Below are positions 24,574 to 58,370 of a DNA stretch of 64,000 nt, piece after piece. Position numbers and translations under genes: made by a program. The stretch is taken from contig JAHEYN010000012.1 of assembly GCA_023251555.1 (NCBI GenBank), forward strand, positions 1-64,000, written 5' to 3'. How positions within the stretch are numbered: the stretch's first letter is position 1; each line of letters starts with the position of its first letter. This DNA is from Bacteroidota bacterium. GTDB lineage: Bacteria > Bacteroidota > Bacteroidia > AKYH767-A > JAHEYN01. The notes under the pieces are model-generated. The model saw only the letters and a program-made list of their open reading frames with translations, was not told the DNA's origin and made no database searches.

Positions 24574-25857
24574 CTAATAATTATATTTTTCTCCCCATAG
24601 TTTTTTCAGGAAATCGCGCAGTTCGTTTTCTCTCGCATTTTGTCCGGGATCATAAATCTTTTTTCCTCTTAGCTGTTCCGGGAGATATTCCTGGGCAGAG
24701 AAATTGTTTTTATAATTATGTGAATACTCGTAATTTTTTCCATAACCGGATTCCTTCATCAGCTTTGTCGGGGCATTCCTGAGATGCAGGGGCACCGGGA
24801 GGTTGCCTGTTTCTGCTGAAATTTTATTTGCAGTGGAAATTGCTGCTACCGAGGCATTGCTTTTTGGTGAGGATGCAAGGTATGCGGTTACCTGTGAAAG
24901 TATGATTTGTGCTTCCGGCATCCCTATTACATCAATGGCCTGGAAACAATTGTTTGCCATGATGAGGGCTGTGGGATTGGCATTCCCTATGTCCTCGGAG
25001 GCGAGGATGATCATCCTGCGTGCAATAAATTTCGGGTCTTCTCCCCCTTTCAGCATGCGGGCCAGCCAGTATATGGCGGCATTGGGGTCGCTGCCGCGCA
25101 CAGACTTGATAAAAGCAGAGATAATATCATAATGCATCTCTCCCTGTTTGTCATAAAGGGCAATTCTCTGCTGGGCCGTGTGCATGACTTTTTCATCAGT
25201 AATGATGAGAGGAGTTTCATTTGTTTCCGAGAGAAGTTCGAGCATGTTGAGCAGTTTCCTGGCATCTCCTCCGGAAAGGCTGATAAGGGCTTCGTGTTCC
25301 CTCAGATCTATTTTTTTCCGGGAAAGGATTTCATCTTTTGAAAGAGCCTGGTTAACTATTTTCAGCAGTTCTTCTTTTGCGAGCGGCTTCAGGATATACA
25401 CCTGGCAGCGGGAAAGGAGAGGTGAGATCACTTCAAAAGAAGGATTTTCTGTAGTGGCGCCAATCAGGGTGACAGTTCCCTTTTCCACTGCGCCCAGCAG
25501 GGAATCCTGCTGTGATTTGCTGAAGCGGTGTATCTCATCAATGAAGAGGATGGGGCTTTTTGCGCCCTCGTTTTCCTGCCTGTACCTGCCGGCTTTATCA
25601 ATTACCTCCCTCACTTCTTTCACACCCGAACTGATTGCGCTCAGCGTATAGAAGGGGGTGTTAAGGGATTCGGCGATCAGGTAAGCAAGAGTTGTTTTTC
25701 CGACACCCGGCGGCCCCCAGAAGATAATAGAGGGTATGCGGCCTGCTTCTATGGAACTGCGCAGTACTGCGTTTCTCCCTATAAGATGTTCCTGCCCTGT
25801 GTAGTCTTCTACCGAGTGCGGCCGCATCCTTTCTGCCAGAGGCATGGTGTTTTTCAT
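24574..25857 (-). CDS. rarA: replication-associated recombination protein A (RarA/MgsA)
   Basis: A 427-residue AAA+ ATPase of the clamp-loader clade that acts at stalled replication forks. Walker A GPPGVGKTTLAYLIAES (about 49-65), Walker B FIDEIHRFSKSQQD, sensor-1 GATTENPSFEV, arginine-finger region SPLLSRCQVY, followed by the MgsA C-terminal domain (SVRGSDPNAAIYWLARML, SEDIGNANP). The annotated frame is open one codon earlier at a TTG, but ATG 25857 (MKNTMPLAERM) fits better. Repeat copy C fills most of the gap between this gene and the phosphatase gene upstream of it. Confidence 0.95.
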   Translation of the reverse strand: MKNTMPLAERMRPHSVEDYTGQEHLIGRNAVLRSSIEAGRIPSIIFWGPPGVGKTTLAYLIAESLNTPFYTLSAISSGVKEVREVIDKAGRYRQENEGAKSPILFIDEIHRFSKSQQDSLLGAVEKGTVTLIGATTENPSFEVISPLLSRCQVYILKPLAKEELLKIVNQALSKDEILSRKKIDLREHEALISLSGGDARKLLNMLELLSETNETPLIITDEKVMHTAQQRIALYDKQGEMHYDIISAFIKSVRGSDPNAAIYWLARMLKGGEDPKFIARRMIILASEDIGNANPTALIMANNCFQAIDVIGMPEAQIILSQVTAYLASSPKSNASVAAISTANKISAETGNLPVPLHLRNAPTKLMKESGYGKNYEYSHNYKNNFSAQEYLPEQLRGKKIYDPGQNARENELRDFLKKLWGEKYNY

Positions 25858-25886
25858 CAACTCTTCAGGTATAAAATCTTCCAGTA

Positions 25887-25959
25887 TTAAATTGGTATTA
25901 ACCCCGGGGCAAGTCCCGGACCCTCTTTTCCGCCGCAGCGAAACGCGAAGGCGGTTAAA
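25887..25959 (-). repeat. interspersed intergenic repeat, copy C
   Basis: Read on the minus strand it begins TTTAACCGCCTTCGCG and ends GGTTAATACCAATT; it matches copies at 43775..43838 and 56824..56895. The ends TTAACC/GGTTAA are inverted. It overlaps the last codon and stop of the phosphatase gene: the TAA stop is part of the repeat's TTTAA end. Confidence 0.85.
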
Positions 25960-27946
25960 TCCTGATGCCCATCACCAGGATATCATCAATCTGTTCCCTT
26001 CCGGCTTTCCATTGATCCATGGTCTTTTCAAGTTCTTCTTTCTGTGAGTTCGTATCAAGGCCGCTTATCTTCTGCAGCAACTCCTGGAAGGGGGGATAAT
26101 AAAATTTCTTATTGGCCGGCCCGCCTTTCTGATCTGCAAAACCGTCGGAAAACATATACAGCATATCCCCCTTTTTCACTTTGATGAGATTATTGGTGAA
26201 CGGGGGAGGTTTTTCAGATCCGAGAATCTGCCTGCTGATGGATACCCTGTCTGCTTTATATTCGGTGAGTTTTCCGTCGCGGATAAAATACAGCGGAATT
26301 TTTGCCCCGGCATATTCCACTTCCATCTTTTGGTAATCAATAGCGCAAACTGCTATGTCCATCCCGTCTTTTACGGAATTTGCCGAAACGTGGTGCTTCA
26401 GGGTATATTCTATTTCTTTTTGCATCTGGTCTAATATGTGTGAAGGGCAGGATGCGGCGGTAGTTGACTTCTGAAGCATGTTATGCCCAATAATAGACAT
26501 GAAAGCGCCCGGTACGCCATGTCCGGTACAGTCTGTTACCGCGGATATTATTTTGCCGGAATCATGCCGGCTTATAAAATAAAAATCACCGCTCACCACA
26601 TCCTTCGGCCTGAAAAATATAAAACATCCGGGAAGCAACTGTGCTATTTCCGTGGGCAGCGGAAGAATGATTTCCTGGATCTTCTGGGCATATTCAATGC
26701 TGTCGGTGATCTGCAGGTTTTTCTTTTTGATCTCTATGTTTTGCACGTCGAGTTTCGCATTCAGTTTCTTGATGAGTCTGAAGCGGTTGCCCAGCAGGAC
26801 GGTGAACATGACAATAAGGATAAAGCCGGAGATGAAAATGTTTTTCATCGTTTTCTGGCGCCCCAGATCTTTTTCTTTCAGTTCTTTATCCTTGTTCAGA
26901 AGCTGGATCTCTTTTTCTTTTTTGTCGGTTTCGTAAAGAGCCTGCATCTGTGCTGTTTGTTTTGATGTTTCTGCATTCAGCAGCGTGTCCTTCAGCTCTG
27001 CATACATACTTAGATACTCGAAAGCTTTTTTGTAATCTCCTTTCTGCGAATAGAGCTTGGAAAGATTTTGGTACAACTCCTGGAATATCTCTTTTGACTG
27101 CAGCTCCTCCGTGAGGCGGAGTGCCTGATTGAGGTAGCCGAGTGCCTTGTCGTATTGTTTCATGTTGACATAAACAATCCCGATGTTGGCGGTGGAACTG
27201 ACGATTCCTCTTTTATCCCCGGTTTCTTTTTTCAGGATGAGCGACTGCATGTAATAGCGGATTGCTTCCTCATAGTTTTTTTTGACGTCATAGATCATCC
27301 CGATATTGTTGAGTGCGTAAGCCATGCTTTTTTTGTCTTTTGTCTGAGTGTTAAGAGCCAGACTCTCCCTGTAGTAAAAGAGGGCACTGTCAGGAATGTC
27401 TTTTTTATAGTAAACATTGGCAATGTTGTTATAGGAGGTGGCTATTGTTTTTTTGTCGTTTATTTCTTTTCCGAGTGCCAGTGCGCGGAGGTTGTAACGG
27501 AGAGCCATGTCCTGGTTGCCCTGACGGGAGTATACCAGTCCTATATTATTGAGCGATGACCCGGTGGCAAGCTTATCACCGAGCTCTTCAAACAGTTTAA
27601 GACCAGCAAAAAAGTTAGTAAGCGACCGTGCATAGTCGCCGAGAAAATAATAAGCGAGACCCTGGTTACGGGCTGCCTTGGCGAGCCCGGTTTTAAAATG
27701 AATCTTCGCAGCCAGCTCCCCGGCCTCCCTGGCAAGAGTGAGTGTCCGGGCAGGGTCATCCGTTCGCAGCTCAAAGGCCAGGGCATTGAGGGCGTTGACT
27801 TTATTGGTGTCATCTTTCTGCTTTGTGATTGCAAAAGCCATGGAGTCAAGCCTGGGCGTCTGGGAATACACAAACGGAAAAGGGAAAAGAAAAAGGAAGA
27901 ACAGCGCTGCCCGTAAAATATAAAGTCTGTTTTCCGGGAGGTTCAT
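25955..27946 (-). CDS. TPR-containing SpoIIE-type serine phosphatase (membrane signalling protein)
   Basis: A 663-residue protein: signal peptide or N-terminal anchor (about 8-28), six to seven tetratricopeptide repeats (about 55-320; for example NNIGLVYSRQGNQDMALRY, NNIANVYYKKDIPDSALFY), a Lys/Glu coiled coil, a membrane helix near 365-385 (IFISGFILIVMFTVLLG), a second short coiled coil, and a C-terminal PP2C/SpoIIE phosphatase domain with metal-binding [10 protein letters not shown] and [15 protein letters not shown]. The design is periplasmic TPR sensing linked to a cytoplasmic phosphatase. It has a paralogue at 49929..52088. The partner anti-anti-sigma protein and kinase are not in the window. 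Follows the YiiX-like gene by 19 bases. Confidence 0.9.
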   Translation of the reverse strand: MNLPENRLYILRAALFFLFLFPFPFVYSQTPRLDSMAFAITKQKDDTNKVNALNALAFELRTDDPARTLTLAREAGELAAKIHFKTGLAKAARNQGLAYYFLGDYARSLTNFFAGLKLFEELGDKLATGSSLNNIGLVYSRQGNQDMALRYNLRALALGKEINDKKTIATSYNNIANVYYKKDIPDSALFYYRESLALNTQTKDKKSMAYALNNIGMIYDVKKNYEEAIRYYMQSLILKKETGDKRGIVSSTANIGIVYVNMKQYDKALGYLNQALRLTEELQSKEIFQELYQNLSKLYSQKGDYKKAFEYLSMYAELKDTLLNAETSKQTAQMQALYETDKKEKEIQLLNKDKELKEKDLGRQKTMKNIFISGFILIVMFTVLLGNRFRLIKKLNAKLDVQNIEIKKKNLQITDSIEYAQKIQEIILPLPTEIAQLLPGCFIFFRPKDVVSGDFYFISRHDSGKIISAVTDCTGHGVPGAFMSIIGHNMLQKSTTAASCPSHILDQMQKEIEYTLKHHVSANSVKDGMDIAVCAIDYQKMEVEYAGAKIPLYFIRDGKLTEYKADRVSISRQILGSEKPPPFTNNLIKVKKGDMLYMFSDGFADQKGGPANKKFYYPPFQELLQKISGLDTNSQKEELEKTMDQWKAGREQIDDILVMGIRI

Positions 27947-43774: not shown

Positions 43775-43838
43775 TTTAACCCGCCTTCGTGTTCCGCTAC
43801 GGCGGACAAGAGGGTTCGGGGCTTGCCAGGGGTTAATA
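43775..43838 (+). repeat. interspersed intergenic repeat, copy A
   Basis: Begins TTTAACCCGCCTTCGTG, centre CCGCTACGGCGG (a small hairpin), ends GGGGTTAATA. Ends are inverted (TTAACC/GGTTAA). Matches copies B and C over its whole length with scattered changes. Confidence 0.85.
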
Positions 43839-43894
43839 TACTATTTTAATCCCCCGCTCTTATTCCGGGAGTGTTAAGGAAAATATTTAAAGCA

Positions 43895-56823: not shown

Positions 56824-58370
<1,547 letters not shown>

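Follow-up and report, generated by a model that had tools for sequence, protein, structure and literature searches.

The 64,000-nt stretch of Bacteroidota DNA analysed here (referred to as the window) carries a short repeat in three gaps between genes, described in a first-pass annotation as resembling a REP/BIME or small MITE family. The locus therefore raises the question of what kind of element the repeat is and how it spreads. Inspection of the sequence confirmed the three copies at the positions and in the orientations originally assigned to them, and a 21-base core pattern matched exactly these three places in 64 kb (0.00 matches in 100 shuffles), with none expected by chance. The boundaries were redrawn, since host target had been counted as repeat and the right end had been placed up to 12 bases short. 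The revised features are listed below.

43775..43780, + strand: target of copy 1, TTTAAC (consensus TTTAAT); conservation of the left flank is confined to positions -6 to -1, and the motif is present in the empty sites of a related MAG
43781..43850, + strand: element, copy 1, 75-nt class, composed of hairpin A, hairpin D and the right end ACTATTTTAAT
43781..43805, + strand: hairpin A of copy 1, CCGCCttcgtgttccgctaCGGCGG, based on folding and pair counts
43816..43831, + strand: hairpin D of copy 1, TCGGGGCTTGCCAGGG, imperfect in this copy
56824..56829, + strand: target of copy 2, TTTAAT
56830..56897, + strand: element, copy 2; its final base adjoins the ATG (56898) of an IMP dehydrogenase gene
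25955..25959, - strand: target of copy 3, TTTAA, whose TAA is the stop codon of a TPR/SpoIIE-type gene (25955-27946, - strand)
25886..25954, - strand: element, copy 3, located 25 bp upstream of an MgsA/RarA-type ATPase gene (24574-25860, - strand)

Abundance, ends and modules

The genome examined comprised 2.84 Mb in 55 contigs and was 97% complete. Searches of the whole genome yielded 139 matches to the repeat family with a covariance model and 45 with BLAST, and a 26-mer with ≤2 mismatches was found at 99 genomic places, as compared to 0 for its reversed control. The expectation of many copies across the genome was thus borne out, with more than 100 copies rather than only the three of the window. 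Intergenic placement likewise held genome-wide, with 105 of 116 clusters lying between called ORFs. The 75-nt copies differed from their consensus by 11% on average.

Position-by-position conservation, computed over 94-112 genomic copies, and the empty sites described below defined the element as CC(G/A)CC...ACCAATTTA(T/A)T, with the target TTTAAT immediately to its left. Both ends are sharp: conservation of at least ~0.9 bit gives way to <0.1 bit beyond TTTAAT on the left and the last T on the right. The 75-nt consensus consists of TTTAAT followed by CCGCCTTCGCGTTCCGCTACGGCGGACAAGAGGGTCCGGGGCTTGCCCCGGGGTTAATACCAATTTATT. On the evidence of the empty sites and the flank conservation, the "TTTAAyC end" initially assigned to the repeat represents host target, and the true right end (..ACCAATTTATT) is reached ~12 bases beyond GGTTAATA, which had been taken for the right terminus. 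The inverse likeness between start and end (TTTAAyCC and GGTTAATA) is present but partly coincidental, because its left part belongs to the target.

The elements range from 51 to ~139 nt, with length classes of 63, 75, 88, 114 and ~139 nt that correspond to combinations of the following hairpin modules, the A-B-C form being the one of ~139 nt.

Hairpin A: always the leftmost module
Hairpin B: CCGCAGCTTGCTGCGG
Hairpin C: CCTCGCtgcttGCGGCGAGG, with the right end GGTAGTTCATT
Hairpin D: CCGGGGCTTGCCCCGG, with the right end ACCAATTTATT

Palindromes are therefore found near both termini (hairpin A on the left, D or C on the right), and the hairpins are G+C-rich, with the loops G(CTTG)C and C(TNCG)G. 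Judged from the sequence, loss of an internal segment between AGGGT-like repeats appears to have turned the 114-nt form into the 75-nt form. In tandem copies, the right end directly meets the next left end without a spacer, as in ..CAATTTAAT/CCGTC and ..GGTAGTTCATT/CCGCC. At four places (C48:133083, C15:3206, C20:27919 and C39:43528), hairpin A was observed to be inverted in place with respect to the rest of the element.

Mobility and orientation

Occupied and empty sites were available in the related MAG JAIVHO (G061), in which a repeated leader sequence is seen both with and without the element. The empty site CAAATTTTTAAT/TAACTTCTTG occurs at L175, L179, L180 and L201, and the occupied site CAAATTTTTAAT/CCACC...ACCATTTATT/TAACTTCTTG at L171, L172 and L187. 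In the same MAG, L184 and L146 provide mutual empty sites at two more positions, in opposite orientations, and L183 contains a fourth occupied/empty pair inside a locally duplicated stretch. At all four sites, TTTAAT or TTAAT pre-exists in the empty site, and 0 bp are duplicated (one T being ambiguous), without any loss. The family is a mobile element that inserts exactly 3' of (T)TTAAT without target duplication, rather than a sequence held at the same places in relatives. The 108-nt copies of JAIVHO share a mean identity of 97% and have therefore moved recently. The leader itself is a dispersed sequence of ~150 bp (GAGCGAAGCGGTTCCATTCGTTCTCAAATTTTTAATTAACTTCTTGTCAGATAATTACAAAATTTTAAACGTATG) situated just upstream of the start codons of unrelated genes (L171, L172, L175, L179, L180, L187 and L201), and a related leader was observed in L168, from another MAG.

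In the window's genome, copy orientation agreed with contig GC skew at a ratio of 81:35 (p=2e-5) and with local GC skew at 79:37 (p=1e-4); it showed no bias relative to gene direction (55:61). Copies on the same contig shared their orientation above chance (p=0.002), and orientation counts within contigs are not fully independent. Provided that the leading strand is G-rich, as is usual and assumed here, the top strand of the element lies on the lagging-strand template. A skew bias without gene-direction bias is as expected for insertion into this template, and the orientation of IS200/IS605 elements recapitulates the direction of replication (PMC5371812). The corresponding comparison with local GC skew in JAIVHO, where skew is dominated by gene direction, gave 26:15 (p=0.12).

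These data bear on the possibility that the repeat is a MITE mobilised by a DDE transposase acting on double-stranded DNA, as its short, dispersed and gene-less copies and weak terminal inverse similarity might suggest. This origin is nevertheless highly improbable, given four sites without target duplication, a seeming left terminal repeat that is in fact host target, leaving no usable terminal inverted repeats, and an orientation that tracks the replication strand.

The hairpins were assessed for compensatory change. Across genomes, covariation was evident in stems B and D (52 double-changed cells; 0 of 500 shuffles) and far exceeded slid controls, but no compensatory stem changes were found among the copies in the window's genome, and the hairpins would therefore matter for moving rather than for a function at each site. 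This pattern fits hairpins that are selected in actively moving source copies and decay neutrally afterwards, and structural selection is thus suggested to act on mobility. A functional RNA or bidirectional terminator kept by selection in intergenic gaps could account for the G+C-rich hairpins, their two loop sequences and their mostly intergenic location. It is, however, very unlikely in view of the missing compensatory changes, the lack of a T-run and of any relevant match in Rfam at gathering and relaxed thresholds, the lack of a preferred orientation to genes (31, 27, 25 and 22 copies in the four gene arrangements), and the co-occurrence of neutral decay and clean empty sites. Integron attC sites were rejected upon inspection, as the right end GTTAATA misfits GTTRRRY and the copies are not located in cassette arrays.

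The repeat is probably a non-autonomous mobile element moving by an IS200/IS605-like single-strand route, and we infer that an HUH/Y1 tyrosine transposase of the IS200/RAYT superfamily acts on it in trans. In the proposed mechanism, the top strand, single-stranded on the lagging-strand template, would fold into sub-terminal hairpins, after which the putative transposase would cut 3' of TTTAAT on the left and after ..ATTTATT on the right. The excised strand would then be joined 3' of another TTTAAT without target duplication.

Candidate enzymes and known systems

The window lacks a transposase, as noted in the first-pass annotation, and the search was extended to the genome and beyond. The Y1 genes of the window's genome comprise an IS200-like gene (subclass 1.2 type), an intact RAYT on contig C29, a frameshifted RAYT on contig C23 and RAYT fragments. 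A RAYT-type transposase, suggested earlier as a possible partner, is thus present in the genome but flanked by different hairpins. None of the three Y1 genes is flanked by the repeat or carries its ends. A further 59 Y1 loci, taken from genomes that are related or contain the repeat, likewise had neither repeat ends nor a copy within 1.5 kb. Because 35 of 40 relatives have Y1 genes, the presence of such genes in the window's genome is uninformative. IS91-type and IS110-type transposases are absent from both the window's genome and JAIVHO, and a search for Y1/RAYT genes in JAIVHO, a MAG that may be incomplete, gave no match.

Several features of the Y1 loci were recorded alongside. The intact subclass-2.6-type RAYT (L307/L032; G000:C29:29007-29597) is accompanied by fragments at L311 (C28:6347-6565), C21:1-51 and C46:12215-12283, some of them at contig ends. 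The C29 gene is flanked by its own GCGTAGCGTCCCGCTACG hairpins and may itself have been recently mobile. The frameshifted gene at L033 (1471-1991; G000:C23) lies between two inverted two-hairpin units of ~50 bp (GTTAGGCGAAGGC..), probably a separate REPtron. Tandem hairpin-rich repeats of ~170-190 bp are located beside the IS200-like gene at L031 (1900-2340; G000:C18) and reach the contig end.

Dispersal in trans by one of the genome's own RAYTs (Bacteroidota Y1 subclass 2.6), with the repeat as its atypical REP/BIME, would be compatible with a single-strand mechanism. The genome has two genes of the subclass-2.6 type, with NHLH/NHVH and YIHQNP/YIHNNP motifs, and 'atypical secondary structures' instead of GTAG REPs have been described for this subclass (PMC6006769). 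This explanation is nonetheless unlikely: in a REPtron the gene is bordered by its own REP, and the hairpins in that position here are unrelated (GTTAGGCGAAGGC.. at C23, GCGTAGCGTCCCGCTACG.. at C29), and JAIVHO harbours many young copies without a RAYT match. Somewhat less likely still is movement by an enzyme that belongs to none of the known Y1, IS91 and IS110 groups, a reading based on the many near-identical (97%), clean insertions 3' of TTTAAT in JAIVHO, in which no transposase of the tested groups was detected. If true, it would imply a replication-coupled, duplication-free mobility system with a novel enzyme serving a family across Bacteroidota.

Among described systems, the favoured IS200/IS605-like element behaves most like the PATEs (palindrome-associated transposable elements) of Haloquadratum, which are hairpin-ended, duplication-free IS200/IS605 relatives whose ends match resident IS605 transposons (PMC3119063). 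In both, the copies are numerous and too small to contain a gene, palindromes lie near the termini, the left side has a short, conserved target oligonucleotide that is not duplicated, and cores are deleted between internal repeats (PMC3119063); a further likeness is a transposase acting in trans, which is putative for the repeat. In contrast to PATEs, the repeat has no IS605-type parent among the 3 Y1 loci and the 59 elsewhere, its hosts are Bacteroidota rather than haloarchaea, its left and right hairpins are unlike in sequence and its right-end modules are interchangeable; because no parent transposon was found, it is placed beside the PATEs rather than among them. With IS200/IS605 elements such as IS608 and ISDra2, it shares hairpins in a sub-terminal position at either end, an insertion point 3' of a short, invariant target, the lack of duplication and an orientation that tracks replication (PMC6006769, PMC5371812), whereas it differs in lacking tnpA, in having hairpin A directly at the cleavage site and in its target TTTAAT. 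A guide tetranucleotide 5' of the hairpin feet was not recognisable by eye in alignments A1 and A2.

Like REP/BIME elements with RAYT (TnpA_REP), which are linked to Y1 proteins in some lineages, the repeat forms multi-copy intergenic hairpins, and a dedicated transposase is also missing for the CGTC REPs (PMC3733652). It differs from them by multi-hairpin units of ~60-140 nt with fixed ends, direct instead of inverted doublets and the lack of a REPtron, and no GTAG/GGAG, GT[AG]G or CGTC foot is contained in the consensus at hairpin A or D. The initial comparison with REP/BIME or small MITE families therefore holds in that the mobile repeat is interspersed, multi-copy, gene-less and hairpin-bearing, but neither label fits fully: when tested, the repeat qualified neither as a canonical REP nor as a DDE MITE.

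Besides Reichenbachiella agariperforans DSM 26134, ~18 other MAGs of Bacteroidota or Chlorobi contained the left hairpin sequence; three matches in Clostridia and Acidobacteria look like chance. Within the window's order, the distribution is patchy, with abundant copies in the window's genome, seven diverged copies in G019 and none in the family's only other genome. A model search of 297 genomes phylum-wide recovered only the window's genome, a weak negative as ~12 candidates per genome were scored, and plasmid, phage and viral-contig collections contained no match.

A TTTAAT-targeting hairpin element is thus spread across Bacteroidota, mostly in uncultured lineages, with its ends, target and pre-insertion sites defined, and it represents a second transposase-orphan small-repeat family beside the CGTC REPs. 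The earlier question of REP or MITE becomes that of which enzyme moves the repeat. In the annotation of Bacteroidota genomes the repeat can be masked or put to use, and, as at the IMP dehydrogenase gene in the window, a copy can determine the sequence directly preceding a start codon.
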